Positions 2,006 to 63,410 of a stretch of DNA of 64,000 bases are shown here, piece by piece. A model generated the notes under the pieces. The model searched no databases and was not told the origin of the DNA. It saw nothing but the letters and a program-made list of their open reading frames with translations. The position numbers were made by a program, and so were the translations under genes. The DNA comes from Brachionus manjavacas (taxonomy: Eukaryota > Rotifera > Eurotatoria > Ploima > Brachionidae): positions 186,001-250,000 of the forward strand of contig JAHQIY010000004.1 in NCBI GenBank assembly GCA_019054805.1. The letters are read 5' to 3'. Positions within the stretch are counted from its first letter, which is position 1, and every line of letters begins with the position of its first letter.

Positions 2006-2231
2006 AGGAGATGAATGATTAATTATATTTCTTTTTTTAAGATAAAAAAATAAAAAAAATAGGTATTGGCACTAGCCAAAATCTATAAAGCACACGTGAA
2101 AAATTATCATTTAAAAATTATTTTGGGAATTTGACCCAAAAATTTAAAATGATAATTCTGATTGAAAAAAATTAAACTTTTTTTTTCAAATTTAGATAAT
2201 TTGCATTTAAAAAGAATTCTGAATCAAAAAA

Positions 2232-3053
2232 ATGAATGATACAGAATTTTCGAAAATTTTGTCTAATTCTCTTCCAATTAATGTAATCAAGCAAATAAAC
2301 GATACAACTATTTTGGGTCAGAAATATGTGATTGTTGTGAATAAAATTTTGTGGTACAAAATAAGAGTTTTTTTGAAAGAAGATCATTTGGATAAAAGAC
2401 AAAAATTAACTGAGTACCATTGGTCGCAGCATTTAACAGAAGAGGGTGTTGAAAATCACATTAAATGGATTAAAGCACGTCTCAACAGAACTCCTTTGCT
2501 ATTTTTTGAACAAATCGATCATTTGCGCCAAAATCTAAATTATTATATTTCTAAAATTAAAATTGACGATGGATGTAAAATTAATCCAGAAAAATATTTT
2601 AATGCAGGTGACCATCTGTCTTTTACCCGAAAAGATGGTATTTTCGACTGTATTTATATTGGCAATAAGAAAGTAGTACATATTATTTCCGAAAAAGAAG
2701 CTTCGTCCAAAAGATGTGCAAAAGCCAAGGAAGTTTCGTGGGAAAAGTATGTTGGAATTGACGACAATGGCAACGTTCCATATCATGGGACTGTTTATGT
2801 AGTCGTTCAAAGACTTAGAATAAGAAAACCAAAAGAAATTGTAGAAGGAGCGAAAGAGCTTTCTTCAAAAGTGTATCCAAAAGACCGATACAATTTTTCA
2901 TGGAAAAATAGTCAGCACTTTGCTACATATTGCTGCATTGGTAAGGAATTACCGTATGGAGTTATGCAAATTTTTGCTAATACGAATATTAGGCAAGAAC
3001 CAGGTCCATTTCAAATCTTAAGCGAATTATCCTCTCCTTTGTTAATAGACTAA
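2232..3053 (+). CDS. LRAT/NlpC-P60-like protein with catalytic Cys replaced by Ser (copy 1)
   Basis: Intronless, 273 residues, ATG at 2232. An N-terminal region of about 100 residues of unknown function precedes an LRAT-type domain: FNAGDHLSFTR near residue 125, CIYIGNKKVVHI near 141-152, and YNFSWKNSQHFATYCC near 224-239. In LRAT and HRASLS enzymes the last block is normally N-C-E-H-F, the Cys being the acyl-accepting nucleophile; here it is N-S-Q-H-F. The second family His (VVH) is kept, whereas the first catalytic His aligns with Phe. The protein is therefore probably a pseudoenzyme or uses another chemistry. No signal peptide or membrane anchor is evident. Its first ~90 residues and its upstream region are nearly identical to the inverted copy at 11.8-12.7 kb. 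Confidence 0.75.
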   Translation: MNDTEFSKILSNSLPINVIKQINDTTILGQKYVIVVNKILWYKIRVFLKEDHLDKRQKLTEYHWSQHLTEEGVENHIKWIKARLNRTPLLFFEQIDHLRQNLNYYISKIKIDDGCKINPEKYFNAGDHLSFTRKDGIFDCIYIGNKKVVHIISEKEASSKRCAKAKEVSWEKYVGIDDNGNVPYHGTVYVVVQRLRIRKPKEIVEGAKELSSKVYPKDRYNFSWKNSQHFATYCCIGKELPYGVMQIFANTNIRQEPGPFQILSELSSPLLID

Positions 3054-6290: not shown

Positions 6291-6297
6291 ATGAATC

Positions 6298-11842: not shown

Positions 11843-12676
11843 TTAGTTTGCTTCTAATGGAGTCGTAAAAGTTTTGACCACAACCTGAGATGTTTGAGGA
11901 TCCCTGCCAACATCCATTAGTATTTTTAAAATTGAATCATTTAAATTAAGTGCCCCAATTGAAAATTCTTTTCCAGTACAGCAGTATGTAGCAAAATTTT
12001 GACTATTTTTCAAAGCAAAATTGTATTGACCTTTTCCATATTCATCTGAAGAAAGCATTTTAGCTTCTTTTAATATTTCTTCAGGCTTTCTAATTCTTAG
12101 TCTATAAACAACTATGTAAACAGTTCCCCAATATGGAATACTATCATACTCGTCAATTCCCACATAATTTTCCCAAGAATCTTCTTTTACAATTGGACAA
12201 CTTATCGACGAATTTTTATCAAGAATGTGTACAACTTTCTTATTTCCCATATAAATACAGTCATGAAGATCATTTTTTCGTGTTATAGTCAAGTGGTCAC
12301 CTGCATTAAAATGTTTGTCTGGATTTTGTTTACAATCATCTTCAATTTTGATGAGAGAAAAATAATATTTTAAGTTAGTACTCAATGGGTCCATGTGTTC
12401 AAAATGTAGCAAAGGAGTTCTGTTGAGACGTGCTTTAATCCATTTAATGTGATCTTCAACACCCTCTTCTGTTAAATGCTGCGACCAATGGTACTCAGTT
12501 AATTGTTGTCTTTTATCCAAATGATCTTCTTTCAAAAAAACTCTTATTTTGTACCACAAAATTTTATTCACAACAATCACATATTTCTGACCCAAAATAG
12601 TTGTATCGTTTATTTGCTTGATTACATTAATTGGAAGAGAATTAGACAAAATTTTTGAAAATTCTGTATCATTCAT
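11843..12676 (-). CDS. LRAT-like protein with Ser in place of catalytic Cys (copy 2)
   Basis: Intronless, 277 residues, ATG at 12674-12676. The first 90 residues differ from copy 1 at only two positions, while the remainder is clearly diverged. The LRAT-type blocks are FNAGDHLTITR, LHDCIYMGNKKVVHI and YNFALKNSQNFATYCC. As in copy 1 the nucleophile position is Ser (N-S-Q), and here the following His is Asn as well. The first family His, lost in copy 1, is kept (LHDC). It is probably not an ordinary LRAT acyltransferase. The C-terminal tail differs completely from copy 1. The 5' flank is shared with copy 1 for about 150 bases, to near 12830. Confidence 0.75.
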   Translation of the reverse strand: MNDTEFSKILSNSLPINVIKQINDTTILGQKYVIVVNKILWYKIRVFLKEDHLDKRQQLTEYHWSQHLTEEGVEDHIKWIKARLNRTPLLHFEHMDPLSTNLKYYFSLIKIEDDCKQNPDKHFNAGDHLTITRKNDLHDCIYMGNKKVVHILDKNSSISCPIVKEDSWENYVGIDEYDSIPYWGTVYIVVYRLRIRKPEEILKEAKMLSSDEYGKGQYNFALKNSQNFATYCCTGKEFSIGALNLNDSILKILMDVGRDPQTSQVVVKTFTTPLEAN

Positions 12677-12839
12677 TTTTTTGATTAAGAATTCTTTTTA
12701 AATGCAAATTATCTAATTTTGAAAAAAAAAGTCTAATTTTTTTTCAATCAGAATTATCATTTTAAATTTTTGGGTCAAATTCCCAAAATAATTTTTAAAT
12801 GATAATTTTTCACGTGTGCTTTATAGATACGATATTTAA

Positions 12840-13399: not shown

Positions 13400-13915
13400 T
13401 TTTCCTATTTACAAAAATCATGCAAAAATTTTGTTAAATATACACCATTCGTTAAAATATTTTGTTTTAACATTTAATTTCTTCCCAGCTTTTTCAAGGT
13501 CTTTTTCATAGATACTTATTGTTGTATCATCAGCAAACATTTTGATACTTAAATTCTTAAATAAAAATGGTAAATCATTAACAAAAATAAGAAATAGCAG
13601 TGGACCCATGACAGATCCTTGCGGGATACCTAGCTTTAGTTTTACTGGATTAGACATTTCACATCCAATTCTAACTATCTCAGATATTTTTTCAAAATAG
13701 TTTGAAAGAAGATCCAAAGAAGAATTTTCAAAACCATAGTGAAAAAGTTTTAAAAGTGATAAATTTGAATCAATAACGTCAAATGCTTTCCTGAAGTCAA
13801 TAAAAAATGAAACCGTTGTTTGTTTTTTTACTTGAGCTAAATTTTTTTCACTAATATACTCATGGATTACTGTTTGACATGAATGTCCGTTTCTAAAGCC
13901 ATTTTGTCCTTAAAA
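13400..13915 (-). mobile_element. LINE-C reverse transcriptase fragment
   Basis: On the minus strand, RT motifs occur in order: QNGFRNGHSC near 13900, SFFIDFRKAFD near 13800, then GIPQGSVMGPLLFLIFVNDL near 13620 and the catalytic MFADDT near 13535. The last two are in one open frame, 13418-13717. The sequence differs from LINE-A. Both ends are lost. It lies downstream of GMPPA on the same strand. Confidence 0.85.
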
Positions 13916-36067: not shown

Positions 36068-36730
36068 TTAGCTAAATAAATGAATGTTAAGAAGACTTAA
36101 ATTGAATTGGTTAACCGAGGTCGATTCAGTAACTGGCGGGGGCAAAGCGTTCCACTCGTTGATGACCCTGTTGGTGAAGAAGTTTGCTCGCTGCTGACAT
36201 TTGGTCGTGACTTGGCCAGAAAGTCTTCTCCTGTGTCCCCTAATATTACCAGCTGGTCCTGCTTGCGAGAGAGAGTTGCAGTGTTCCATAGGTTTCACCC
36301 AGCATACAGCGTTGAATCCGCGGTAGAATTTGAACAGTTGGATCATGTCTCCTCTCAAACGGCGCTCCTTAAGTGTCGTGAGTCCTAATACAGCGAGGCG
36401 ATCAGCATAGCTCCAGTTCTTGTATCTGCTCACTAGCTTTGTGGCCCTCCGTTGCACAGATTCGAGGATTTTGATGTCCTTTTTGCTGTGAGGAGACCAG
36501 ACTGTTGCAGCGTACTCAAGGTGGGGTCTGACGAAGGCACAGTAGAGGATTCTGCACGTATCGATGGTCCAGTACCTGAATGTTCTCTTTAGCTGTCCGA
36601 GGATGGCGGTAGCCTTGTTAACCTGGATTCTAATGTGGGTGGAGAATTTCAGGTTACGTGAGAGGGTGACTCCGAGGTCTTTTTCGGTTTCGACATATTT
36701 CAGGGTGGTGCTTCCTTTGGAATCACCCAA
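36068..36730 (-). mobile_element. CR1-like LINE-B, RT C-terminal part, GC-rich
   Basis: 220-codon frame reading KYVETEKDLGVTLSRNLKFS, LGQLKRTFRYWT, CAFVRPHLEYAATVWSPHSK, ILESVQRRATKLV, LGLTTLKERRLRGDM, and RVINEWNALPPPV near the end. This is the thumb and C-terminal region of CR1/RTE-type animal LINEs and is intact over its length. It is far richer in GC than its surroundings and than LINE-A, suggesting a young or recently arrived copy. The 5' end is truncated near 36735. Confidence 0.85.
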
Positions 36731-37059
36731 ATTAATTTACTTTTTAGAAATTTGAAGTCAATTAAAAGGAATTTGAGGTGTAATGAATCAAAAGATATTT
36801 GACGATCACTTTTCTTATTTTGCTTTTTATGCTCTTTGAACCGTCAAAGGGAGTTTAGTTCCAGGTTACCTTAATGAACATATCTTTGGGAAAAATATTC
36901 TTAAACAATTCGAAATTTAATTTAAAAAGTAATTCCTAAAAACTGAAAAATCTGTACCTAGCCGAAAATATTTCAGAATTTCAGAAAAAAGTTAGCAAGA
37001 AAAAACAATTAAATTAACTTAAAATCTTTTCAATTGTTAGTCTAATTTCGGTTCGGATT

Positions 37060-46122: not shown

Positions 46123-46935
46123 TATATGGCAAGAATTTTTTTCTATTATATAATTTCAATGGTGCTTTTAAAGTTTAAAATGCCCGGCTTTTTTCGATTT
46201 CTAGACAATTATTAATAGGTATTGATATAGCTAATTAGTCAAAAAATATGAAAATTAAGTCATTTTTGAACTTTATCTTTTACTAGAGATAAATTTAATC
46301 AATTAATTTTTTATGAAATTTAAAAATTTTTAACAAGTAAAATTGTTAAGTTTTTATTGTTAGTTATATTAAAATTTTTTCATATAGATAAAATTTTATT
46401 TTTGGAATTTCTATCCTTATGATATTTGCTATTAAATAAATTTTTTGAATAATGAAAAAAGCATTATAAGAAACCTTTTTTAAATTTTCTGATTCCATAG
46501 GCATTGCATTTGTCTATAATTTTAATATAAAATAAAGTTATTGATTATCTTAGTTTATCAATATTATCGAATATTCCGCAAACTTTCGTTTAGATTTTTG
46601 TTTGTTTATATTTAAATTAACCAATATAAAAATTTTATCAATTTTTGACGATCAGTTTTTTAATTATATCGATTTTTGCATGATCAACATTTTTGTTTCT
46701 AAAAAACCATTAAAAAGAATTTTTATCTACTTTTAAACATTCTTGGTTATTTTCCTATAATAACTTAAATTAAAATTCTTAATCAAAATTAATTTTAGTA
46801 TTTATAATAGACCATTTCAGCTTGAGCCACTCAAACGATTCCGTAACATAGAACTGTAGTAAAGTATCGTCGTTATCTCAACTTAAAACCAATCTGTTCA
46901 GCCGTCCAATGAGACTGAACCATATGTCTTAAGTA
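46123..46935 (+). repeat. Left terminal inverted repeat
   Basis: Inverted copy of 62512-63410. The outer 535 bases are near-identical and the inner part diverged, ending with gtcttaagtaagctgt. No reading frame inside. Confidence 0.9.
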
Positions 46936-47577
46936 AGCTGTCAACTTTTTTTAAGAAACTTTTTGTAATTTTACACTAAACAATAGTAATTTTTCGAAAA
47001 ATAAAATATAGTTTTTATAAAATATAAATATAAAAATTTTATTTTACTTATTTTCCACTTTCCGGCGTAAATTTTCGCATGTCAAAAAAATATTTTGAAT
47101 TAAAAATAAACTTAAAATATTTATTATAATTTTTAAAATTAAAGATTGCTTTGTGTTAAATAATTGAAACTATTAAGCTAAATTGGCGATTAAAATATTT
47201 TAGATTAATAAAAATTGATTAAAAATTTTTTTAAAAATATTTTTTTTTAAATGTGAATAAAATCTGCTTTTAAATGTTGCTTCGTAATCAATCCAAATGA
47301 ATTTTTACATTTTTGCCAGAAAATTTAATAATGTTTATTTCAATTGGATTACATTGTTTCATCTATTTGAGATTATCTAATTAAATTTACTTTAAAAATA
47401 TCCAGTTCGATTTTTTATTATTAGAATCTTAAATTAAATATTTAATTTAAGATTCTAATAATACGTAAAATTTTCCATGGAAAATTTTACGTCACAGTTG
47501 CTATGCTGATGTAGGGAAAAATGCTAGAGTAAATCATGTCTTGCTGTTTTTGATTGTTTTTATTTACTAATAAAAAG
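46936..47577. other. Non-coding left arm of 17 kb element
   Basis: AT-rich. A perfect 22-base inverted repeat at about 47428-47464 (attaaatatttaatttaag core) and a ttttccatggaaaatttta palindrome near 47470. 47490-47560 is homologous, inverted, to 59770-59820. Confidence 0.5.
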
Positions 47578-48001
47578 CAGTCTTGTATAAAAGTCACAAG
47601 TCAAGTGCAAGTCAGGACTTTGACTTTTTTTAAAAAAAGGAATTAAAATATATAAAAAAATTATAAGTCTTGAATTTTATTATTAAGGGAAAAATAAAAT
47701 TATTTGTTAAAATTTCTTTTTCAATGTAAATATTGAAACATGATTTTTTAAACAATTCACATAATTGACCTATTCTTGTTAAGTGAATTTATTAATAAAA
47801 AAAAAAAAAATAATAGATATTAATCAAACAAAATAAAAGAAATAAAATAATATATAAAAAATAAAATTTATGACTAGTAATTTTTAAATTTTTGAAACAA
47901 GTTGAGACTTGTTATTTTTTAAAAATTTATTTTCAATCCAAGTCATACTTGGACTTGTTTTTGACTTGTTCAGATTTTTTTCTGATTTTTATACAAGTCT
48001 G
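47578..48001. mobile_element. 424-bp hAT-like MITE in left arm
   Basis: Tips CAGTCTTGTATAAAAGTC and, as reverse complement of the right end, CAGACTTGTATAAAAATC. Flanking octamers ATAAAAAG (47570-47577) and GTAAAAAG (48002-48009) differ at one base. Internal acttg/caagt words. The homologous right arm (near 59760) lacks it, giving an empty-site comparison. Related to 17102-18092. Confidence 0.8.
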
Positions 48002-48181
48002 GTAAAAAGCAATAAAACAATAAACAAAAATTGAGTAAATTTATGCCACTGTTTTAAGCTCTCTTGGTGGCGATTAAAGTATTTTATTTCAATTTTAAAG
48101 ATAAATTAGATAATCTAATTAAAAGCATCTTTTTTAAACTTCAAACTTATTTATTAAAAATTAATAATATAAAAAAAATTT

Positions 48182-48430
48182 TTATTCCTTGAAAATAGCC
48201 TCAGCATCTTTTTTAAGGATAAAAGTAAGTATAAATGCACTTGTTTCTTCTTCAATTACAAAATTTAGACCGATTACTTCCTCTTTTAGGCTTTTTGAGA
48301 CTTTATTGTCATCAAATTTATACCTGTTGTCTTCGCAATTTATGAATTTCTCCAATATGAAAAATAACTGCATTAAAATAGAATATATGTGATTCCAACC
48401 ATTTGGAAGTATTTGAAGTATAAACAATTT
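48182..48430 (-). pseudogene. Inverted, broken copy of USP C-terminus
   Basis: Ends YKFDDNKVSKSLKEEVIGLN to DAEAIFKE, closely matching the USP at 59.46-59.59 kb. Upstream the homology (HIFYFNAVIFHIGEIHK) is in another frame, and the codons for the catalytic-His box GHYVIYINP are deleted. It cannot encode an active protease. Part of the long inverted homology between the element arms. Confidence 0.8.
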
Positions 48431-48652
48431 CTTCCCAGAAAAAAGACTTAAAAGTTGGCTATAAAATTAAACTATTGTCAATAAAATGATATTTTTATAG
48501 GACAAAAATTACTTAAATAAAAATAATAATTTGGTATAATAAATATTATATTTATTTATTTGTTAAATTTGATTAAATATAATTTAAAATATTTGATTAA
48601 ATAAAACTAAAAATATTAATAATATATAAAAAAAAAATGAAATTATTATGAC

Positions 48653-49726
48653 CTAAAACTCTTCTGTATCAGATTCCGGCAATCTAGCTTCACGTTTATA
48701 TTTTTCAATAAAAAATTGATTTTGCGCATCTTTGTTTATTTTGAATCGCATATCTCGTGATCCGTCAACATTTTTTCCATGTTGAAGATATTTTTTTCTA
48801 TTATATTTTTTTGTCATGTTAGGCGTTCCATCCATATTGAAATCACGACATTCCAATAAATCACGCAACAAAAAACCATTGAATTCTGGCTCAATTAATG
48901 TGCTTTGTAGATTTGGAAGAAAATTGTTTCTTGAACTCTTTAAATTTAAAAAACTTTTAATTTTAATGCTTGATAATTAAAAACAATTTAAGTTACTGTC
49001 TCCATTCTTATTGAATTTGGATCTTTATTTACCTTGAAGCTTTTGTTTCTGCTATGATCAACCTATAAGATAAAAATAGAATAACTTTAAAATTTCAAAA
49101 CAAAAAAAAGTACATTTTCTTCAACTTTTACATAACTAGTACTTGTGTTTTGGATCTTAGATGTGCCATAATTTTTAGGAGGATAATTTTTTTTTTCTTC
49201 ATCAATAATTTTAATTGCCTTTTTTCTTCTAAACCTCTACACCCTTCATTTACATTTAACTTTTTAGACAATATTTCCTTTATTAAATAAAAAAAATGTT
49301 TTAAGACTGAAAATGATAAAATAAGAGTACCTGTTGCCTACAAACTTTATCAAGTTTTATTTGCTGGGTTTCATACTTTTCCAAAAGATTAAAATAAAAT
49401 TTTCTAAGTTTTTTAAGTTTTTCGTCTTGAATTAAAATAATTGCTGCAAAGTCCATATTTCTTTCGATGAGTTTGGTTGAATTATCTTTATTTTTATGAG
49501 AACCACCAAAATGAGTTTCTAAAACTGAAACATTATTAGAACCTTCACATAGATTTTCAAAAGCTTGATCAATGCTGCTTAAACATTCCTGGTCATCGAA
49601 TAAAAAATTGTCATGCGGAACACAATGTTCTGAATTAAAATTTCCCTCCTTAATATCACCATTTTTCATTTTTTCCTTAATCTTGTCTACCACATCAATA
49701 AAATCATCACAAACATAAGGTTTCAT
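48653..49726 (-). CDS. Element cargo gene, unrecognised, several exons
   Basis: ATG at 49724-49726 (MKPYVCDDFIDVVDKIKEKM). Exon 1 (49331-49726) is acidic then helical, with LRKFYFNLLEKYETQQIKL at its end and a donor cag|gtactc. Exon 2 begins after ttaataaag and passes from NEGCRGLEEK into a second frame (KIIDEEKKNYPPKNYGTSK) within an A run, so one base is gained or lost. A short exon (VDHSRNKSFK) follows. The last exon (48653-48943) reads LIEPEFNGFLLRDLLECRD, GTPNMTKKYNRKK and RLPESDTEEF then TAG. No known domain. Same strand and spacing style as the two genes upstream of it. Confidence 0.5.
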
Positions 49727-50049
49727 CGTTGCATTTGAATCGAGAAATAGTTGTTTTTTTTTTAATTCATTTTTAAAGAAAATTTTAAATAATCTTAAAA
49801 TTTATAATGAATGTAAAAAAACTTGTATGGACTCAAAAAAGTTAACAAGCAGTTTAGACTAATTACTGGGAAAGGCACTTGCATCCTTCACTTTTTAATT
49901 TTTCAACATGCTTTAAACACGTTTTAGTTAAAAAAGAGAGTTTTTAATTTGTTTAAAAAACAATAACTGATTTTTAAACTATTAAGGTTAAATAACGAAA
50001 CAAAAAATTTAACAACAAAATTAATTTATTATTTTAAATAATTACATGA

Positions 50050-50445
50050 TTATTGATTAATAATTTGATTTTCTAAACATTTAATTTTGCTGTCTTTTTC
50101 AATCACAATTGCCTTTAAATGCTCAACTTCTTCTTCAAGCTTCCTGATATTTGGATTAATTATTATCAAATCAGAAGGTTTTAAAATAATCGAATAAAAT
50201 TGATTTTTTGTTTTTTCTTTAAACAAATTTCTTGTTTTACCACCTTTTTTAAACCAAGATCGTTTAATTGATACAAATTTTGAGGTTATATTTTTTTCTA
50301 ATGACGATGAAAGCGGATTTTGAAGCTTTAACTTGAATTTACTTTCGATATGCATTGATAATTCAATTAACAAACGTTTATTAATTGTATAATTATTCAT
50401 TTTAAGACTCGTGAAAATAATTTCTTTGCCTATTTTGATTTCCAT
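50050..50445 (-). CDS. Element cargo gene, 131 codons, basic with C-terminal coiled coil
   Basis: Single exon, ATG at 50443-50445 (MEIKIGKEIIFTSLKMNNYT). The middle is Lys/Arg-rich (SIKRSWFKKGGKTRN). The last 30 residues form a heptad pattern (LEEEVEHLKAIVIEKDSKIK). It may bind DNA or act as a multimerising partner; no family recognised. Lies between two other minus-strand genes of the 17 kb element. Confidence 0.5.
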   Translation of the reverse strand: MEIKIGKEIIFTSLKMNNYTINKRLLIELSMHIESKFKLKLQNPLSSSLEKNITSKFVSIKRSWFKKGGKTRNLFKEKTKNQFYSIILKPSDLIIINPNIRKLEEEVEHLKAIVIEKDSKIKCLENQIINQ

Positions 50446-50705
50446 ATTTTTAATTTAATTCTGAAATTTAGATTCTTTGATTAAATAGCAATTGTTGCTG
50501 GTCTACAAGAATTCATAATCTTTTTGTTGAAACTTCAGGCTAATAACTCACGTGAATATTTTTTATTAAAAAACTTGGTTTCGGAATACAATGTTAAAGG
50601 CTTTAAAAAAAATGAATATAATAAAAATTTTATTTAAATTTAAATCAATAGATAAATATTTTGCTAAAATAAATTTGTAAAATTTGATAAATAAAAAAAA
50701 TAACT

Positions 50706-51600
50706 AATAAAATTTGCTTCTTTTAAATTCATCGAATTGTTCTGGTTTATTGTAGCTTTTTTTGATCTTTAGATTAATTAATCCCTTTTCATCGCTTCTC
50801 GATTTAGCGTTTTTTTGACAAATTATCTCTGATTTTACCGTTTCTTCTTTTGTAACATTCTAAATTGAATTTTTTTTACAAAATATACAAAATTACAATT
50901 TTTTTTTTTAAATACTATCATTGCCAAACTTGAATATTTTGATTCAACCGATAAAGACTTGATTTCTTTAGTAAAAATATTACTGATGCTATTATTGCAT
51001 AAGGAATTTGCTTGAAATTGTCTTGAATTCAAATTTTGATTGTCTGTTTTTTCAAGATCATTCATTTTTAAAATTCGCACTGATTGACCTGTCGAAGAAT
51101 GCAAATTTGAACTTATTGGTGAGTAAGATGTGATTTTATCTAATTTAAGCAAGTTGAGATTTTCATCTTGATAAAACAGTGAATAAAAATCAGTCTGTGT
51201 TCCTGAGCTTTCGGTTTCAATCTTATTAACATGCATTTCATCCAAATTTAAATTCAAACTACCCAAATCACCTAAACTCTTACTTCTTATTAAAAATTTT
51301 GATCTGAGATTTGGGTTGAGATTCAAATTATTATTTTGAATGAATAAATTTGGAAATTGTATTCCACATTCGTAATTCTTTTCAATCTTCATTTTTTTAG
51401 GGTCATTTTTAATTTTATCAAGATGAAATCTTGTATAGTGAGCTTTAAGTCGATCTGAAAAGTCTGTTTTCCATTTTGGATTGCAATAAAGACACTGATA
51501 CTTTTCCTGAAAGAAACACATTTATATTATGCTTTTTTCATAAATAATAAATTACGCTGGTGGTAGTGATGTTTGATGAGCTACTATTTGTTCTTTTCAT
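50706..51600 (-). CDS. Element cargo gene with C2H2 zinc finger
   Basis: Exon 1 starts at ATG 51598-51600 (MKRTNSSSSNITTTS) and ends at donor gtaattta. Exon 2 (to about 50915) begins after tttctttcag with YQCLYCNPKWKTDFSDRLKA and HYTRFHLDK, one C2H2 finger (C-x2-C-x15-H-x4-H). A Ser/Asn-rich, disordered stretch follows (SLGDLGSLNLNLDE, SSGTQTDFYS). After a third intron ending caatttag, exon 3 (50706-50860) encodes NVTKEETVKSEIICQKN and ends RSKFY, stop. A single finger with a disordered tail suggests a DNA-binding accessory factor. Divergent from the transposase gene across a 3 kb spacer. Confidence 0.6.
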
Positions 51601-54577
51601 TCTTGAATATATAATCTTTTATGAAAATCTTTCTCGTTTTTTATAGAAAATATAATTTTAAAAGCTAAGCAATCCTTCAAGAAGTTGATTATTCTTAATT
51701 TTTCAACATGCCAATTTCTAACAAATAATCAAATTTTTTATTGTGAAATTTAATAAAACAAAATGGTTGCTTGAAAATTTTATTTAAAAAATTTTTTAGA
51801 TTTTTTTGACAACTCTAACATGAATTTAAAACAACGCCCAGCGTTGTGCATGTCTATACCAAGCATATATAGCCAATCTATAAAAAATTCTTTGTTTTTC
51901 TTTAAAATTAACAATTGACCCATCATATCTGATAACTATTATGAAAAAAATAACACATTAAAAAAACATTTAACGAAATTAATGTATTGTTTTGCGCATT
52001 TTTTTGTATTAAGCAGATTATAATGCGCGCTTAAAGGAGATTTTCAATATTTCATTGGCTATTACCATGATGAATTCTTACGAATTATTGAAAATCGACT
52101 TTAAACCCACGTTAACAACGGTTTAATACTTTTTTGCAAAAATAATTTTTTGATATATTTTTAAGAAAGAATGGTAGTAAGAACTATGCGGTAAAGTAAT
52201 ACTCTAATATTAGTAGGCGAAACTACTATGCGCAAGCAGTAAGGATAATTATAACAAATTTACTTTGAAAAATCCATTCATTTTTAGAATTTTTGAATAT
52301 GCTGGTCCTATTCCTGCAATACAAATTATATCTAGTTCGGAAAAATTTTTGTTACTCAAATGTTTTTTCTTAAACATTTTTTAAATAGTCAAAAATAAAA
52401 AGAATAAAGGCTTATTATTTTAAATAAATCAACTATCCTTTTCGGAATTAATGAATTCATCTTATATTAAAATAAAATTTCAAAAGATTTCACAACTAAA
52501 ATTTTCATTTTGCCTAAATTCTAAAATTAGACCTTATTAACAGTTTAAGAAAAAATTCATTTATTTTATATCATATAAATTTTTCTTAAAATAGTTTTTT
52601 TAAGCTAGCAACCGTACGCTTGTACGCTTCACTGGTACGGTGTAAATTTACAATCACTGTTTGATTCAGAACTAATAATTTTTGGATAAATTTAATTTTA
52701 AGTTAATTTATTTTCCTGAAAACTTTTCAAATGTTAATGGTGAAGGAGAAGAAATTGATCTATTCACAGGAATAATATATTTTTAATAATAGATTCATTT
52801 TAATTTTTTGGTTTTAAATAAAAATTAAATTTTTAATTTGATTAAAAAGCTGAATCAAATTTTTATTATCGATGTATGAAACAGTGAACGATGAAAATAC
52901 AAAACCATTTTTCGATTTCTTAAATTTCTTTTCAAAACTCTTCAATATTTTGACTCTAATTGAGAAAAAATTAAAACCAAATTACTGTGCTTCAATGTTT
53001 TTTTTTACGAGTTTTGAGAAAATGCTGACCTTCCTTTTAATTTAAAATAAAATATAAAATTAACAATAATTTCATAAAACTTTAGATTTTGAAACAATTA
53101 AATTTATAAACTGTAATTTTGATAATCAAAAAAAAAAGACGCGTAACGTGTTTTAATTTTTCCGTCAGTTAGAGAAGAAAACTATCAATCATTTAGTACA
53201 AAAAAATTCAACGTGCAACGAAAAAATATTAAAAAGTTTGTTTCAAAAGCAAAAACAAATAATATCAAAAATACTGCTGAATGAAGTTTATATTAGCGGT
53301 TTTATAGAGATGAGATGACGGTCATTTAATATTAAGCTTTATTCAAAATGCATCAAATGACATGAGCTCAATTCCTTTAAGCGATATAAGTCAAAAGCAA
53401 TCAACATTCATGTAAAAAATTGAATAAAAGACTTTCAACTAACATAATAAAAAATATAAAATCCCGAAAAATATTGACAAAATATTTTTCAATCGTTTTG
53501 TCTATTTCATCGCAGCAAATGGATTTTTTGTAAAACAAGTCTTCTTCAAAGCATTTAAAAAAATTCAAGCAATCAGAAATTCTTAAGTTTTTGTAACAAT
53601 TGTTTCAGCAACCATCAAACATATTCAAAAACATGAATATGTCAAATAAATATAACAATTATTTCATTATTTTATCAAAATTGATTTTTTTTATTTATTT
53701 TGTGAACTTTTTTTATTTATTTTATCAAATTATGTTTTTATTAGGGATCTTATTATATTTGATGCTTATTGAAAAAAAAACATTCAAAAGAAGTTATTTC
53801 CAAAGTTAAAGCGGTGTTGCGCACACTGCTCTTGTGCGCTGGGTTCACAAGTTAAAAACGTCCCCTGGAAAACTCTTTTTGTTGTTTATTAGAAATAAGT
53901 AAAAATATTAAGAAATGTAAGAAATATTTTAAGAGCTCAAAAATTTAAAAATAAAATGTTTAAAAAAAATAAAAAGTTTAAAAAAGTTTAAAAAAAATAA
54001 AAATTTACTTTTGTGAAAATCATTAAACCTTTGTTTGTCTTGTTTTAAAAACCTTTTTGTCTCCTTTGGGCTTTTTTTATTTTAATAGTTTACTCAAAAG
54101 AATTTTTTCAATGGTGTAAGTTTAATTGTATTTTGATTAACAAAAATTTGCTAGAAGTGCAGCAAGGTAATAAAACTTTAAATTACTATCCGGGTGATTT
54201 GTGTATTCTTTTATAGGTAAACGACAGTTTACGCCATAAAAATGACATAAATTACATACTAGTAATTTATCGAGCATATTAAAAGGCTTGAAAATTCTCT
54301 TACAAAAAAGGAAGAAATATTAAATAAATTATTTTTTTCCATTTTTAATTTTTTTAATTTATTTCCTCGTCTAAATCAAATTAATTTTTGTAGTTGTTCA
54401 ATTATTTTTATTTAGTCACTTTATTCAAATTAAATCTATATTAAATCATAAGACAAATAAAGAGACAATAATCTTTTAAAAAGGCTATCCCAGTATAATC
54501 AAAAAAGAATAAAAACAATTTAAAAAAATTTTACAAATTTCACAAAAATTTTATACTAAAATTTTAGTTAACTGAAA
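51601..54577. other. Central spacer of 17 kb element
   Basis: Between the divergent gene sets. Mostly AT-rich. Short open segments occur at about 52870-53040 and 53160-53330 (LEKKTINHLVQKNSTCNEKI) without starts, possibly relics. A hydrophobic 69-codon frame at 53600-53809 has no ATG. A gtacgcttgtacgcttcactggtac direct/inverted cluster lies at 52612-52638. Confidence 0.4.
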
Positions 54578-57500
54578 ATGAATCGATCTGATATAAATGA
54601 ATTCATTGAACAAAATCAAGCTTTTTTTGATAGAAGATGGACATCAAATTCTTTTATTGATCGAAGAAATTTAAAAAATTTTGTTAGAAATTTTTTGCTT
54701 ATTTTATCTGGTAATAAATTATCAAAATTAATATTCAAATTACTTTTTTTGCAAAATTTTATAATAAAAGGAAATGATATCAATGGAATGCTTAATGAAG
54801 TTTTGTATGATTTTGAAAAAAATTCATTACAATCAAAATACAAAATAGCACTTCGATATTTTTCTCGAATTTACAATGAAGCTAAACCAAAGGATAAGCA
54901 CCAATATTTGTATCCTTTACGAATTTCTGGATTAAAAAAAAAAGAAGCTGAAAGTCTTAACTTTTTTTCGACTTCTTACATGTGGCAAAAATGTTTGAAT
55001 AGAAATATAAGAAATATTGGTAATTTTTTATTTCCATTCTTGTAATACATTCTTGAAAAATTAATAAAATAGTTCATAGGTGATAAAACGTAAAATTTGC
55101 ACAGCATTAAAAAAGATTCCCAATACGCTCTTTAGAGTTTTACAAAAACCTATTTACGAGTCTTTGTTAAGAAATCAAAAATTGTTAAAAAATTGGATCA
55201 TTTTAAAAATTTTTTTTTCAAATTAGATCATTAAAAAAAATTCCAAACTAAATTTTAAATTTTTAAAGGAGGCAGAAATAGGTTGTCAAGTTTTTTTGTT
55301 GATCAAATTGAAAATCACATGAAAAGTATTAGTGAAATAGCAGCTAATAGATTTTTAAAAAAGAAACAAACTAACGCTTATTATACAAGCACATCAATGT
55401 TAAAAGCATACCAAAATTTCCAGTACAAAGATATTTCATATTCGTCTTTTTATAAATATGTTGATGAAAAGTTCAAAAAACCACATAGAATCTCAGATTT
55501 ATGTGATTACTGTGAAAGAATAAAGTAAATTTTTAATATTAATACAAAAAATTTTCTTTGTTAAAAACAAATTTAAAAAGGGTTTAAAGCAACAATTATT
55601 TAAATCTGCTTTAGAAAATGGATACGATGGACCTGATGACTATTCTTTAGTCAAAGAATTTATTATAATTAAAAAAACAAGGTGTTAATTGAAAAATTTA
55701 GAAATAATCAATTTTTATTAAAAATTTTATTTCTTTTTCCAGAAATGATCTTTTAGGCCAAATTGAATTGTTTTCAAAAATTGAAAGTATTAACCTTCAT
55801 TTTGATATAGCTAATAGGCAAAGAGATTCTTATAATTTAATGCGTTTAAATTTGGAACACGATTACATATTAATAGACATGGATTGGAAGCAAAAAATAA
55901 TGATCGGTTTGTATATTTATATTTTTTGTGTATTCTTAAAGTTTGATCTATCGAAGTTTTGGGCATTGTGAATTTTGGTACAAAAGTCAAAAAAAAAATA
56001 TTAAAAATGCCAAAGCTTAAGTTCTGAATGACCAAATCATGTTCTATAAATCGCAGCAACTGATACATCCTATGTACCACTAATATAATGATTCTTCAAA
56101 TCACTGCAATAATTCTGCAAAATTCAGAAAATTATGAATATTAGTACAAAAAACAAAAACAAAATATAAAAAAAGCTAGATCTTTAATCTAGAAAGACTA
56201 AAACATGTTCTGAAAATTGTAGCAACTGAAACATCTTCTTTACTACCCTTTAAAGTTGAGTTGGACTTTTAATATAATATAATATCCCAAATGCAGATTT
56301 ATTGCAGTGTTTTGCAGAATTAGTATATTGGTGGTACAAAGGTTATTCCAGTAAGAAACTAAATTTTTAAAAAAATCATTCATTCAAATTTTTTTTCTTT
56401 TCTTTTTCTCAGTTTTTACCAAATTTTACAAAATCCTTTCAGAATTATTGACTTTGCAAAAAATGTATTGATTTTTTAAAAAATGTTGGCAATTTTCTTT
56501 CCTTTTAATTGAATAACCTGAAATATCGATTATTTCGGTAAATTATTTGTATTTGGCTTTTAAGAATTTACAATATTTCACGTGAATTTACGTTTTTAGA
56601 ATTTCATTAATGATAAGTTAAATCACTTGAATTAACGTGAAATATTATAAAATATTTAGAGACTTGCTTTAAATTCTTGACAAAGAATTTTGAGACTTGC
56701 TTTAAATTTAAGTATTAATTTCATGATTAACATAATACCTGCAATTATAACTGATTTTATTAATATCGAATACAATTTCGTCATTTTTCAGATTAAAAAT
56801 TAAATAAAATTAAAATTTAAAAATTGAGAATGTTGAAAGATAGTGCAACTTTTTTATTTTAAAAGAATTTTTTTTTTCTTTTTTTCTATTTTTCAATGGA
56901 GCAAAAGTCAAAATTATTTTACTCTTAGAGTAGTATGCATGAGTTTACGGTATGTAAAAGTATTTTTTCTAATATCTTTTATTAACTTTATTCTTAATTT
57001 AAAAATTTAAAAATTTTTGTTCAAATTTATTTGAAATTCACAAAACCACTATTTTTTTGATTCAAAATAATGCAAATAACGGGTTTATCCTTTCATTTAT
57101 TCTCGAATGACTCGTTTTTTTTTCTATTGATGCAAGCCGCAATCGATTTTAGTAATTATTTTTATTTATTTATTTAAATTAAAATAAACTGAAATTAAGT
57201 AACTCATAATCTCTAATAATTTGAAATGAGAAAAAAGCTTTGCATCCGCTTTTATTTATATTTATTAATTAAAGGTCTTAGTCCAAGGCAGCCTAGTAAT
57301 GAATACAGAAACCAAGTATCAAGAACTTTATTTGGTTTTGGGATTTATTTCAAAAAAAATGATACTGTTGAGTGCATGAATATTGATTTGATTTCTTGTT
57401 TGCAAAACAGCGAAACTGGAGCAGAAGTAGTTAAAAACTTTAAGTAATTTTTGCTTGTTTTCTAAAAAATTTTTTCTAATAATTTTAGTAGATTTTTAAG

Positions 57501-58457
57501 AAATTTAGATGTTTTCAAAAAAATTGAAACAAAAAAATACATTATTTGGGCTGATACTGGAACTCACTTTAGGTGTTCTGAAGTCATCCATTATTTATTT
57601 CAAGAGCTTTCAAGAGATAAAATAAAAGTATGTTTGAACTTCTTTGTAGAAAAACACGGTAAAAATAGTCGAGATCAACATTTTTCCGCTGTTTCTAATT
57701 TTATAAATCAAGAATCTCTGGTTAAAAAATTAACTTGCTCTCAAGATATTGCTGATGCAATTAATAAAAATCAACTAATTTCAAATATTTATCGACAAAA
57801 AATTAAAAAACTTAAACCAATCCAAACTCTTGCCTATGTTGTCAATTTTACCAATTTTGAAGCTAACTTATCTTTTAAAAAAGTAAAAAATATCACAAAT
57901 TATTACAACTTTTTTAATAATGACGCAAACGAGCTTCGCAGTGTAATAGTTTCAGATTTGCGTATTTCAAAATTGGTTGAGTACGAAGATTCATTACAGA
58001 ATATAATAAATAATGAATTAGATTGTACAACGATAGAAAAAAAAGTAATAGAACCAAAGCTTCCAAATATAATTAGAAAAACAAAAATGCTAAAAAAAAT
58101 CTACGTTCTTTGCAAACAAATCAAAATTGCGAAATAAATGCCTCGCAAGAGTTGAGCATTGTATTATCGAATTTGGATGATTTAGAGGAAAAAATTGATA
58201 ATAATTGGTGTAAAGAAGAATGCAAAGACTGTACAGCGACTATCCGATTTAGATTAACTGAATTAACATGTGAAACCAGAAAAAACTTAGTTGATGAATT
58301 AAAAAGACATCAGCATCCGTCATCAAGAAGTAATCAGTACAAAAAAAATAGATCAAAAGATGAGGCAATGAATGAGTTGAAAGCGCATTATTTAAAAAAT
58401 CATAGGAAAGATAATTTAACTTTCGAAAACTCAAATATATTTTGTAAAAAAATGTAG
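54578..58457 (+). CDS. Spliced DDE-like transposase of the 17 kb element
   Basis: Exons: 54578-55019, 55269-55524, about 55578-55681, 55743-55906, 57275-57443, 57489-58457; most junctions keep phase (for example I-G|G-R-N-R, I-G|L-S-P-R-Q). About 700 residues. Exon 2 has SSFYKYVDEKF and CDYCERI, likely half of a zinc knuckle. Exon 4 ends YILIDMDWKQKIMIG, the first acidic residue. Exon 6 has YIIWADTGTHFRCSEVIHYL, the second, then LNFFVEKHGKNSRDQHFS with the candidate third. This D..D..E pattern on a predicted RNase H-like fold is what marks it as a transposase. The exon 2/3 join is one base off, and near 58090 the frame shifts in an A8 run before QTNQNCEINASQEL. Intron 4 (1.37 kb) holds a MITE. 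Superfamily not recognised. Confidence 0.6.
55966..56350. repeat. MITE in transposase intron 4
   Basis: Starts gtgaattttggtacaaaagt, with internal cagcaactgatacatc and tgtaccac. It contains two diverged inverted halves, the second ending ggtggtacaaaggttattcc. The homologous copy at about 59840-60805 is split by a Merlin-like element. Its presence lengthens an otherwise short intron. Confidence 0.7.
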
Positions 58458-58511
58458 CCAAAAATTTTTATGTTTACAGAGTTTAATAATGCATAAACTT
58501 AGACAAATAAA

Positions 58512-59593
58512 GTAGAATTTTGTGGAATTAAAAATTTGAAATGTAACTGTTTTTTGAACTGTATCATTCAATTGTTTTTTTTTATACCTATAATTCGGAA
58601 CAAAATTCTACATTTCGAATATTTAACAGATACTTCCTTGTTTTTGAAGGAATTACGAACTATGTTTTTACAGCTCAAAAATAAAATAGGTCCAGTTGAT
58701 CCAACCAAACTAATCAACTCTTTTGGTAACGAAAAAATTTGGTTTTCACAACAACAAGATGTAAATGAATGTTTCAAAAAAGTAAATATTTAAGATCATT
58801 ATAAATATTGAAACAACTCACTAATTTTTTTTTAGTTTATTGAAAAATTGGAAATAATTAACTTAATTGAATATTTTTTCGATACGATTATGGATTTATT
58901 TAAAGGAAATATTAAAGTTTGCTCCTTAAATTAATTTGGAAAACGAAAAAATTTTTTTTAAACCTTTTATTTAAGTCTATTTTAGTTAGCGAAGAAATTG
59001 GTTATAATTCAAATACATTTGATGATTTTATAGAAATAAATTTAGTTGTTGATGGAAAAAAAAATAGTATAAATGTATAAAATTAAATTATTTTTTTAAT
59101 ATTTTTAGTTTATGAATCTTTATGCGAACTACAACAAGCTACATATTTTTCAGGAGAGGATCAAGTTATAATTGAAAATCACGGACCTAAAGATTGCATA
59201 AAATTTCAAAAATTCAAAAAACTTCCTCCGATTTTGAATTTTTGTTTATTAAGATTTAAATATGATGAACAATCAAAAAAACAAATTAAAATCAATGATA
59301 AATTTGAATTTCCGGAAATATTAGATTTAAATAAGTACGTTATAGAAGGAGAATCTCAAATATTCTATTTATTTGCCGTAATTGTTCACATTGGAGAAAT
59401 TGACAAAGGACATTATGTAATTTATATCAATCCGAATTGCGAAAACAACTGGTATAAATTTGATGACAATAAAGTCACAAAAAGCCTAAAAGAGGAAGCA
59501 ATTGGTCTAAATTTTGGAATTGAGGAAAAATCAAGTGCATATATGCTTACTTATATCCGTAAAAAAGATGCTCAGGCTATTTTCAAGGAATAA
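58512..59593 (+). CDS. USP-type ubiquitin-specific protease carried by the element
   Basis: Exons 58512-58781, 58836-58916, 58976-59066, 59109-59593, about 308 residues, GT..AG introns of 40-60 bases. The Cys box reads VEFCGIKNLKCNCFLNCIIQ, aligning with the family G-x-x-N-L-G-N-T-C-Y-L-N; the catalytic Cys is kept though preceding residues differ. Next WFSQQQDVNECFKK, FIEKLE and NTFDDFIEINLVV, as in USP7/USP47-like enzymes. Then SGEDQ, the LNFCLLRFKYD strand, IFYLFAVIVHIGEIDKGHYV with the catalytic His, and NNWYKFDDNKV with the Asp. The zinc-ribbon cysteines are lost. It would remove ubiquitin from proteins, perhaps protecting the transposase. No ATG is apparent at the start, so an upstream exon or fusion to the transposase is possible (55 bases after its stop). 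Confidence 0.75.
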
Positions 59594-59740
59594 AAAAAAT
59601 TAAATAAATAAAGTTGTTTTTTTTAAATTATTAATTTTTAATAAATAAGTTTCATGTCTAAAAAAGATACTTTTAATTAGATTATCACATTTATTCGTTA
59701 AATTGAAGTAATACACTTTAAACGCCACAAAGTGAGCTTA
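59350..59740 (+). repeat. Inverted homology block shared with left arm
   Basis: Covers the USP 3' end and about 150 bases beyond (aaagatacttttaattagat). Matches 48010-48430 in inverse orientation at moderate-high identity. Confidence 0.8.
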
Positions 59741-60033
59741 AAACATACTTGCATAATTTTACAAGTTAAAAAAAACAATCAAAAATATCAAAACATGATT
59801 TACTCTAGCATTTTTCCATCCATCAGTAAACAGGCCAAAATACTGATTCTGCAAAATCCTGCAAAATTCAGAAAATTGTGAATTTTAGTACAAAAGAGTT
59901 TTGCAGATTTATTGCAGAGTTTTGCATAATCAGTATTTTGGTGGTACAAAGAATGTATCAGTTGCTAAAATTTACAGAACACTTTGGTCCTTCTGAACTT
60001 AAGCTTTGGCACTTTTAATATTTTGTTTTTGAT

Positions 60034-60775
60034 GGGTCTTGCCTGTTATGTGACCAGTGACTTTATGTCGATTTGGTGACCAGGTATTTTTTCTGACTGG
60101 TCACATATTCACTGGTCACCTAATATGTGATCAGGCAAATTTTCTTTATTTGGTAAAAATGTTTATAAATAATTTTAACCTGGTCACCTAATTAAACATT
60201 TGGTCACATAAATTTCAATTAAGTTTGATAAAATTTAATTGTAAATATAATAAAATAATTTCAATTGCAACTATACTTGGACATGAGGACATGAGAGGTT
60301 CAAAACGGTCCGAAATTCAAAGTTATTTGGATGAATTCACTTGGAGGTTCAATAATAATTTAAATATTCATCGAATATGGTGTAATAATTTAATGTTGAA
60401 TATTATAGCTAAGTATTTTAGGCCTGGTTCTAAGTAATTTAATAAAAAAAGCTCCAATTGCTTCTGAAGCGACACAGTCTGCAAAAATGAGCGTGGTGTA
60501 AAGCAACACATCGCAAAAATGCATAAATACTTTTTTATTGAATTTTTATAATTTTAAATTAATATACAAATTGGTCACGTAAATAAAAAAACTGGTCATA
60601 TAAATTTAATAACTGGTCACTAAAATAATAAAATTTTTTTTAAAAAAAATTCATTATTTTAATAGTAATATTGCCTGGTCACATATTAGGTGACCAGTGA
60701 ATATATGAACAGTCAGAAAAAATACCTGGTAACCAAATCGACATAAAGTCACTGGTCACATAACAGGCAAGACCC
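60034..60775. mobile_element. Merlin-like element with ~105-bp TIRs
   Basis: Ends GGGTCTTGCCTGTTATGTGA / reverse of TCACATAACAGGCAAGACCC, near-perfect over about 105 bases with repeated ctggtcac words. Flanking octamers TTTTTGAT and CTTTTGAT differ at one base. The uninterrupted MITE at 55990 supplies the empty site. The GGGTCTTG tip is shared with 16238-16838. Confidence 0.85.
60225..60437 (+). pseudogene. Merlin/ISXO2-type transposase C-terminal remnant
   Basis: 70-codon frame inside the element with KRSEIQSYLDEFTWRFNN. Y-L-D-E-F-x-W-R-x-N closes the ISXO2/IS1016 transposase domain used by Merlin elements. The catalytic part is absent, so the element is nonautonomous. Confidence 0.5.
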
Positions 60776-60805
60776 CTTTTGATTTCTGTACCAAAATTCA
60801 CAATT

Positions 60806-62511
60806 CCATTTAGCTCGACACAGATAAATCAAATAAATAATGATAATTTTTAATTCAATTTTTAAATCAATTTTTATACACAATTATGAAAAAATTCTAT
60901 TTTATTCTTTAAATTTATAATTTTTACTATTGTAATTTTTGTTTGTTTACTTTTTAAGAATGAAAAAACTATGTAATATAAACTATTCATTTTTTATTTT
61001 TATCTATCAACTATGCCTCTTGATTTGAGGAAAAAACTTAACTTTAAAATTCTAAAAACATAATTGTTTCTTTATTTTTAATTTTATCATCGCCGAGTCT
61101 GGCGTTATTTTGAAATAAATTAAATTTAGTGAAATTAAATTATTTAAATTTATTTAGAAAGACAAAAATGTATTTTATTTAAATTTTTTTTTACATCACC
61201 CTCGCGTTAGTTACTTAATAAATAAATAAAAATAAAATAATAGCTATTGGATGTAAAATTTTTCAATTTAATTAGAATGAATTTTCATCATCATGCTCTC
61301 ATCTTTAACTATCTGCCTGTTTTTTTAGCCACTAAATAGAGGTATTCAGAGACTTAGTTAAGGATTAATCAATTAAAAGAAAAAAGAAGATTTGATGGGT
61401 ACTTTATGGATTTAAAATAAATTTTTTTTATGGACAACTTTTTTGATTTAAAAAAAATCTTTTAATTCAAAAAACTTTTTTGATTTAAGAATTATTTCCA
61501 AAAATAACATAATTTTTTCACCATATTCTAAAATGATTGATTTGGAAAGTGAATCAGATAGGAGTTATATTAAAAGAATGGAAACTCAAGCATTTGCTAG
61601 ATTTAGATAAAGCCTTTATTAAGCCATTTCTTTTTGGCCGGACCAAAATGAAAGAAAAAGGCGTCTAGCATTTTAAAGTTTAAAAGCCATTATAAGATAA
61701 ATTTAACTTTCGAACAAAAACAAAAGTATTTTTTAAATAGAAAAAATTTTTGATAAAATCGTTTTAAATAAAAAATTGGACTTTAATTTTTTGATGTTCT
61801 AAAAAAAATTTTCTGCTTCTAAATAAAAATAAAAAATGCAATCAAATTTAACATCTTGATTAATAAAAAAAATATACAAATGATGTCAAACAATTTATTT
61901 TTTGGCGACAATTTTATTTTATTATAACTCTTTTTTTTTATTCTTAATCACTCAAGTGGCGTTATTTTTTAAGATACAAAAAATAATAATAATAATAATA
62001 ATATTCAATATTTTTTATATCACTTAAAAAAATTCAACCAATTGTGTAAAGAATAAATATAATTCTATATGTTTTTTGAATCAGTAAAATAAATAAATAA
62101 AAAAAATTTGATACCATTTTTTTATTTTATGTGAAATGATCAATTTCGCATCAGCAGCATAAAAAAAAACCCATTGAATTATATCAACCTAAAATATTCA
62201 ACTTTATAGTCAATTAAAATTATATCAACATTATAATAATTTTTCATTTTTTAAAAAAACACAAAAACGCAAAAAAATTTTATTTTTATTTTTTAATAAT
62301 CCTTAAAGGAGGTTAATTAAATTCAATAAGTAAATAAATATCAACCAATATTTTTAATATTTCTCTAATGCAGACATCACATATAATAAATTAATTTTTT
62401 ATCATGTCCTGAATTACATGTCGATAAAATAAAATATTATTTATTTTAATATTTTAAAAATTTGACTTTTGATTTTGATTACATGTTTTTTAAAAAATGT
62501 TTACAGCTTAC
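60806..62511. other. Right-arm spacer with LINE-A tail
   Basis: A LINE-A-like tail (tagctcgacacagataaatc) is at 60810-60840. The remainder is AT-rich with (AAT)n near 61983. This 1.7 kb has no counterpart in the left arm. No gene. Confidence 0.45.
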
Positions 62512-63410
62512 TTAAGACATATCGTTCGGTCTCATTGGATGGTTGAACAGTTTTGTTTTAAATTGAGATAACGACGATGCTTTACTCCATCTGTGTTACG
62601 TGTTACGGAATCGTTCGAGTGGCACAAGCTGAAAAAGGACAAAGAGTTAATAATACCGAGTAAAAGCAATTTAAAATAAAACTATTTTCGAACTAAAATT
62701 ATTTTCAAAGATCTAATTTAAAAAATAAAATTAATTTTTGATTAAGAAATTTAATTTTAGGTTATTATAGATTGAAAAATTTAAGAATGTTTAAAAATAG
62801 AAAAAGATTCCTTTTTTTTTAATCTAAATTTAGAAAGTAAAATGTTAACCATGGAAAATTTATTATAATTAGAAAACTGATCGTCAAAAATTGATAAAAT
62901 TTTTATATTGGTTAATTTAAATATAAACAAACAAAAATCTAAACGAAAGTTTGCGGAATATTCGATAATATTGATAAACTAAGATAATCAATAACTTTAT
63001 TTTATATTAAAATTATAGACAAATGCAATGCCTATGGAATCAGAAAATTTAAAAAAAGGTTTCTTATAATGCTTTTTTCATTATTCAAAAAATTTATTTA
63101 ATAGCAAATATCATAAGGATAGAAATTCCAAAAATAAAATTTTATCTATATGAAAAAATTTTAATATAACTAACAATAAAAACTTAACAATTTTACTTGT
63201 TAAAAATTTTTAAATTTCATAAAAAATTAATTGATTAAATTTATCTCTAGTAAAAGATAAAGTTCAAAAATGACTTAATTTTCATATTTTTTGACTAATT
63301 AGCTATATCAATACCAATTAATAATTGTCTATAAATCGAAAAAAGCCGGGCATTTTAAACTTTAAAAGCACCATTGAAATTATATAATAGAAAAAAATTC
63401 TTGCCATATA
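62512..63410 (-). repeat. Right terminal inverted repeat
   Basis: Inverted copy of 46123-46935. Slightly longer than the left one because of small insertions in the inner, diverged part. Confidence 0.9.

Follow-up and report, generated by a model that had tools for sequence, protein, structure and literature searches.

A transposon with exact ends, copies and an empty site

The window examined here, a 64,000-nucleotide stretch of the rotifer Brachionus manjavacas (C4:186001-250000 of the genome assembly; C numbers denote contigs, and bare positions are those of the window), contains between positions 46127 and 63406 a cut-and-paste DNA transposon bounded by long terminal inverted repeats (TIRs). 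Inside it, a spliced plus-strand gene for a putative transposase is followed by a gene for a USP7-type deubiquitinase, and several small open reading frames (ORFs) lie on the minus strand. This layout agrees with a preliminary description of the locus, made from its sequence, which had also proposed a 17.3-kb TIR-bounded element; the exact ends, a second full copy and a clean empty site bear that proposal out.

Alignment of copy ends placed the termini at TGGCAAG, starting at 46127, and CTTGCCA, ending at 63406, while the TATA found at 46123-46126 and 63407-63410 is target sequence outside the element. The outermost inverted ends (46123-46488 and 63045-63410, 366 nt) are 99% complementary. Inverted likeness extends over 46123-46811 and 62712-63410 (94% over 700 columns), continues at 80% between 46815-47008 and 62442-62634, and then persists as collinear pieces up to 48395 on the left and 59351 on the right. 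The right arm is the longer of the two because extra sequence lies between 59826 and 62442. A fold-back repeat nested in the right arm is probably a separate insertion, and pieces of a dispersed repeat, inverted and direct, occur at 59835-60032 in the same arm and at 55982-56352 in an intron of the transposase gene.

We searched the genome (114 Mb, 61 contigs) for further copies. The second full copy, C12:763053-780726, has flanks that differ from those of the window copy. Outside gaps, 62 of the 17,199 aligned bases are substituted between the two copies (0.36%), and there are 39 gap openings; C12 retains about 0.43 kb near the start of the deubiquitinase gene that is deleted in the window. 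A more divergent relative spans 33.57-46.29 kb of C41, with ends 67% similar to those of the window copy over 307 columns and inverted arms of about 1.87 kb that are 99.6-100% alike. The inverted duplication on C41 runs past the element ends into the flanks (C41:33058-33568 and 46287-47230), and therefore its arms were probably copied together with the flanks; a long tandem repeat array adjoins this element (C41:24000-31387). On C22, positions 500763-547829 form an array of partial copies comprising element ends and inner genes, the longer pieces mostly 91-96% identical, and some units of the array repeat with the same flank.

At a clean empty site, C13:1494425-1494432, both window flanks stand side by side (423 and 490 bases, 98%). 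The site reads GACAAATATATACAGCTG, where the window reads GACAAATATA-element-TATACAGCTG. The element is also lacking at C26:569083-569090, which we rejected as a second clean empty site and regard as a partial one, since about 113 bp of the left flank is gone beside the junction. Using a degenerate pattern of the terminus (up to 3 mismatches), we found 210 matches in the genome and 3 for a reversed control. At least 15 close head-to-head terminus pairs were present among the matches listed, about half of the 210, and all 13 that we fetched are miniature inverted-repeat transposable elements (MITEs) of 133-154 bp, about 144 bp, bounded by the same TGGCAAG...CTTGCCA ends. Their flanking dinucleotides match in 12 of 13 cases (10 TA, one AA, one TT), and in these 12, as in the window, C12 and C41 copies, the four flanking bases read ANNT on both sides. 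The target duplication is thus NN (2 bp) or ANNT (4 bp), both of which fit the 12 MITEs and the three large copies equally; an initial reading as a clean 2-bp TA duplication was withdrawn because the 4-bp form fits equally. Under the Repbase rule quoted in PMC4455052, which asks for the same duplication length and like terminal positions 1-11, these MITEs would be grouped with the large element.

A transposase-like gene outside the named families

The transposase-like gene has six exons with GT-AG borders between 54578 and 58454 (+). Three protein searches, two of which were limited to 8,000 scored candidates, returned 55 different related proteins. Eleven are from named Brachionus, all B. calyciflorus or B. 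plicatilis; the others are unnamed or labelled 'hypothetical'. As far as their origin is given, the relatives are from Brachionus and unnamed metagenomes. The aligned proteins have in common a C..C motif near the N-terminus, two conserved D sites, the first within ILIxxDxKQK and the second within WxDxGxHFR, and the block EKHGKNxRDQHF. In a motif scan of the 55 proteins, 21, many of them fragments, lacked one or both motifs; among the 34 with both sites, the spacing from the second D to the RDQHF aspartate is 39 residues for 31 proteins, 40 for two and 56 for one. The scan accepted only E, K or P at the E position of EKHGK. This E was dropped as the third catalytic residue in favor of the D of RDQHF because it varies: P0047 and P0051 have P at this place, and C41 has K.

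The conserved order and spacing of the acidic residues point to a candidate DDE/D-type transposase with a presumed RNase H-like fold and catalysis to match, and we use the word transposase because of this residue pattern, the location of the gene in a mobile unit and its conservation. There was no profile match for the transposase part in Pfam (to E 10), NCBIfam or PDB, no named transposase among the matches from the three protein searches, and no relative in an IMG/VR scan with the transposase profile. The earlier suggestion of a DDE-like enzyme is retained as a candidate D-D-(39)-D pattern, which the profile searches linked to no Pfam or PDB entry. P0024, a B. plicatilis gene model, follows the same exons and skips the stretch that holds the third acidic site.

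The window and C12 copies have a frameshift in exon 2 that is absent from the C22 copies. The C-terminus is shortened in the window copy, whereas C12 reads on into a C2H2 finger; separate small gaps in C12 also change its frame. In its present broken state the window copy would need trans-acting help to move, unless its movement predates the damage. Distant relatives of the transposase at C29:607537-607996 and C3:294338-294589 (42-60% at the amino acid level over the matched pieces, where they are free of stops) are possible sources of activity for the MITEs.

A USP7-type deubiquitinase gene beside the transposase-like gene

The second gene of the element encodes a predicted USP7-type deubiquitinase (peptidase C19). 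Among solved structures, the best match of P0024 is USP7 (4.7e-47), with USP28 the next different enzyme (4e-20); in the Cys box, GIKNLKCNCFLN lines up with USP7 GLKNQGATCYMN, and the catalytic Cys, His and Asp are all in place. The protease was first described as following the transposase at once. The two are indeed adjacent, but in C12 the USP begins about 0.3 kb after the transposase stop, and its start is part of the sequence of about 0.43 kb that the window copy has lost.

The genome also contains a host gene (C1:8160976-8161470) whose match to human USP7 reaches 9.1e-87 across 192 aa. Like the element enzyme, the host USP7 has a catalytic domain with Cys, His and Asp; however, its stretch is far closer to human USP7, and no USP7 flanking domains were seen in the element. 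Identity between the USPs of the element and this host stretch is 36-41%, and between the USPs of P0023 and P0024 it is 44% (113/258). To judge from these comparisons, the USP probably derives from a USP7-like gene of the cell, captured before the split of B. calyciflorus and B. plicatilis. P0024, annotated 'ubiquitin carboxyl-terminal hydrolase 7', is a transposon transposase with its USP and not the host USP7.

The pairing recurs. The C41 element has the same order, transposase then USP, and the gene models P0023 (B. calyciflorus) and P0024 each join the two; by eye P0025 appears to do so as well, though Pfam gives no UCH match there. Behind the transposase, both C13 copies have 81 bp of USP left (88%) and the C22 copies retain the USP start region. 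Retroelement-like ORFs were seen by eye behind one C13 copy.

Purifying selection on both genes

We estimated omega from Nei-Gojobori counts, excluding stop codons and taking intervals from resampled codons. Between the window and the divergent C41 copy, omega is 0.21 (0.14-0.29) for the transposase over 460 codons and 0.24 (0.14-0.38) for the USP over 261 codons, at a synonymous divergence (dS) of about 1. The comparison of C12 with C41 gives 0.29 (0.22-0.39) and 0.31 (0.18-0.47), respectively. Nucleotide-based codon alignments of window and C41 yielded 0.23, 0.21, 0.15, 0.26 and 0.15 for transposase exons 1, 2, 4, 5 and 6, with all intervals below 1, and 0.15 (0.07-0.26; 135 codons) for the last USP exon; for the USP Cys exon dS is saturated and the interval is 0.06-0.23. 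No C41 alignment was obtained for the end region of the transposase. Both genes are thus under purifying selection between the window and C41 (omega 0.15-0.26).

Closer pairs give a less clear picture, as would be expected of decaying copies: in the comparison with C13, exon 6 (0.29) is the only one that remains below 1, and the same exon compared with C22 yields 3.55 (interval from 0.8). A tblastn reading of window against C12 was distorted by frameshifts, and in nucleotide alignments this pair differs too little to tell.

Other content of the element and the window

Four minus-strand ORFs of at least 90 aa lie between 48653 and 51521, beside a partial copy of the USP 3' end (Table 1). Three cargo genes had been proposed here; instead there are four such ORFs, whose omega against C13 or C22 ranges from 0.38 to 3.16 at low divergence, with all nine intervals including 1. 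As no selection was detected at this low divergence, we dropped the idea that they form a selected cargo module. The C2H2 finger reported on this strand survives as a motif visible by eye in the last of the four ORFs, to which Pfam assigns no zinc finger.

Elsewhere in the window, opposed long ORFs at 2223-3053 (+) and 11843-12697 (-) have near-identical first halves (MNDTEFSKILSNSLPINVIKQINDTT...) and form a local gene pair. ORFs at 6295-8618, 13418-13909 and 36068-36736 resemble, by eye, fragments of LINE-type (long interspersed nuclear element) reverse transcriptase or endonuclease.

Table 1. Features of the element (window positions).
Feature	Position	Strand	Description and evidence
Left target copy	46124..46127		TA (46125-46126) if the element starts with T, ATAT (46124-46127) if with G; C13 empty site GACAAATATATACAGCTG
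Whole element, TGGCAAG...CTTGCCA	46127..63406		17,280 bp; set by end alignment of three copies (window, C12, C41) and by the clean C13 empty site
Left inverted arm	46127..48395	+	Outer 46123-46811 94% like right arm; inner pieces 80-87%
Partial altered copy of USP 3' end, in left arm	48182..48466	-	75% aa over USP residues 915-966 of P0024
ORF, hypothetical	48653..48976	-	No Pfam match; no selection detected
ORF, hypothetical	49301..49801	-	Sub-threshold Pfam matches only
ORF with coiled-coil-like end	50050..50454	-	IKRSW motif recurs in C41 ORF by eye
ORF with C2H2-like motif by eye	50835..51521	-	Zinc finger not assigned by Pfam; also present on C12, C13 and C22
Transposase-like gene, exon 1	54578..55019	+	
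Transposase-like gene, exon 2	55269..55524	+	C..C motif; frameshift common to C12
Transposase-like gene, exon 3	55581..55681	+	
Transposase-like gene, exon 4	55743..55906	+	First D (IDMDWKQK)
Transposase-like gene, exon 5	57275..57443	+	
Transposase-like gene, exon 6	57489..58454	+	Holds the last two acidic sites (WADTGTHFR, VEKHGKNSRDQHF); frameshift near 58092
USP Cys-box exon	58503..58781	+	GIKNLKCNCFLN and QQD motif; start deleted in window; PF00443 1.6e-13, USP7 alignment
USP probable second exon	58836..58916	+	Borders by eye against P0024
USP probable third exon	58976..59066	+	End approximate
USP last exon	59109..59593	+	His box GHYVIYINP, catalytic Asp WYKFDD; PF00443 3e-27
Right inverted arm	59351..63406	-	Longer than left arm
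Fold-back repeat nested in right arm	60034..60775		112-nt arms, 94%
Right target copy	63406..63409		TA (63407-63408) or ATAT (63406-63409); C13 empty site

Relation to known elements

Our literature comparison is limited to the passages of the cited sources that bear on these features. The preliminary description held that a USP/UCH deubiquitinase beside a spliced transposase in so large a cut-and-paste unit was not known as a described arrangement, which is too strong. In Trichomonas vaginalis, the transposase_11 and Peptidase C19 (USP) domains occur together in one protein, as noted by Bao et al. (2010, PMC2836005), so this kind of pairing, transposase with USP as in the rotifer element, is already known; transposase_11 is a named Pfam family, whereas the rotifer transposase matches none. 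Other ubiquitin/SUMO proteases are found in further transposons. As described in the same source, Ginger1 has OTU or Ulp1 at the C-terminus of its transposase, and its authors proposed a role for the protease in DNA repair. Ginger1 is a cut-and-paste element with a ubiquitin/SUMO protease, as is ours, but differs in its integrase-like transposase, its tabulated length of 2.6-7.1 kb and its protease families. Some Helitrons have a VTD or OTU deubiquitinase, for which the source's account proposes that it guards transposition proteins against degradation (PMC9741609). They share with the rotifer element a deubiquitinase inside a DNA transposon, yet they are rolling-circle elements without a classical transposase and have VTD or OTU rather than USP. 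In the one open-access library searched, no account turned up of this element, of its family of transposases or of any DNA transposon that retains a USP7-type enzyme.

Several established groups do not accommodate the element. AA/AA and TT/TT duplications among the 13 MITEs depart from the TA-only duplications of Tc1/mariner, to which no Pfam transposase match points either. Kolobok and piggyBac are defined, in the source passage, by TTAA duplications (PMC9587614), and the duplications at the C13 site and among the MITEs are not TTAA. As for CACTA or MULE elements with Ulp1, no such transposase was matched in Pfam and the peptidase is of the UCH/USP type. A divergent Sola lineage that gained a USP is a possible assignment but less likely than not, one that would alter the classification only and is compatible with our preferred explanation below. 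Sola, as its source passage has it, possesses transposases of the DDD type, duplications of 4 bp and TIRs reaching 1124 bp, with some elements exceeding 15 kb (PMC10741241). Our element resembles this in its D-D-D residue pattern, its length and long TIRs, and perhaps in a general likeness of motifs; a duplication of the 4-bp ANNT form would fit as well. The comparison is one of descriptions; that passage mentions no USP, no named family was matched in Pfam, NCBIfam or the three protein searches, and a Sola-like motif pattern had no match in this genome.

Weighing the explanations

We consider it likely that the window holds a member of a low-copy, long-TIR cut-and-paste family of Brachionus in which a transposase-like gene is accompanied by a probably captured USP7-type gene that purifying selection has maintained within the element. 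Size and long TIRs are also what a Polinton or another virus-like element would offer, but this origin is scarcely credible: Pfam, applied to 9 of the 11 inner ORFs that reach 90 aa, matched no polymerase, ATPase, capsid or integrase, in agreement with the lack of Polinton hallmarks noted earlier, the IMG/VR scan gave no relative, and the duplication is of 2 or 4 bp. Nor is a segmental inverted duplication or misassembly at all probable in place of a mobile element, even if the C41 duplication exceeds the element ends and C22 has its array of partial copies. The same exact ends occur with different flanks, the empty site is clean and the MITEs lie at many places; for the window and C12 copies this explanation is refuted, and the ends are not restricted to this locus but recur in the C12 copy, in C41 with the same gene order and in the 210 terminus matches.

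The USP could instead be a passenger, a captured fragment of a host gene with no role in transposition. Consistent with this, the gene is lost or damaged in many copies, its start being deleted in the window and only remnants being left in C13 and C22, and neither the three USP copies on C2 nor the one on C6 shows a transposase of the family in the 1.5 kb of flank covered. These solitary copies also weigh against the family as we describe it, together with several other observations: precomputed Pfam annotation assigns a USP domain to just 2 of the 11 relatives from named Brachionus, many of which are partial; the joined gene models may be annotation mergers; the window, C12, C13, C22 and C41 copies all have frameshifts or stops, and an intact copy was not found; and one of the 13 MITEs has unequal flanking bases (TA against AA). 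We nevertheless regard a passenger as improbable, since omega for the USP is as low as for the transposase at a dS of about 1, lower still in the last exon, and the pair recurs in gene models of two species.

A possible role for the deubiquitinase

Under our preferred explanation of a transposon with a selected USP, the transposase would most likely bind the TGGCAAG ends, excise the unit and insert it at ATAT-like (ANNT) sites, and it would probably also move the MITEs of about 144 bp that have the same ends. The USP, in turn, would most likely strip ubiquitin from the transposase that the element itself encodes, prolonging the life of that protein, although we rate this substrate at somewhat under an even chance. 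A host repair or chromatin factor is the alternative substrate, to which we give slightly less credence. Both genes show signs of long-maintained function, which suggests that the element gains by interfering with the host ubiquitin system. More tentatively still, the 'HFR...HGK..D' (DD39D) transposases of Brachionus and unnamed metagenomes may constitute a superfamily of their own in whose autonomous members a captured USP7-type enzyme is needed for transposition, a combination that we think unlikely as a whole. If it were true, the element would directly override ubiquitin-dependent control of the transposase or of host repair.

For annotation, these results correct the entries of a transposase family outside Pfam whose members rotifer gene sets label 'unnamed', 'hypothetical' or 'ubiquitin carboxyl-terminal hydrolase 7', and they may add a transposase superfamily. 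Ubiquitin/SUMO proteases of the Ulp1, OTU and VTD kinds occur in several kinds of mobile element, where their role is still guesswork. A USP7-type enzyme and a transposase under similar purifying selection across a deep split provide a testable case, as the biochemistry of USP7 is well worked out and Brachionus species are in laboratory culture.

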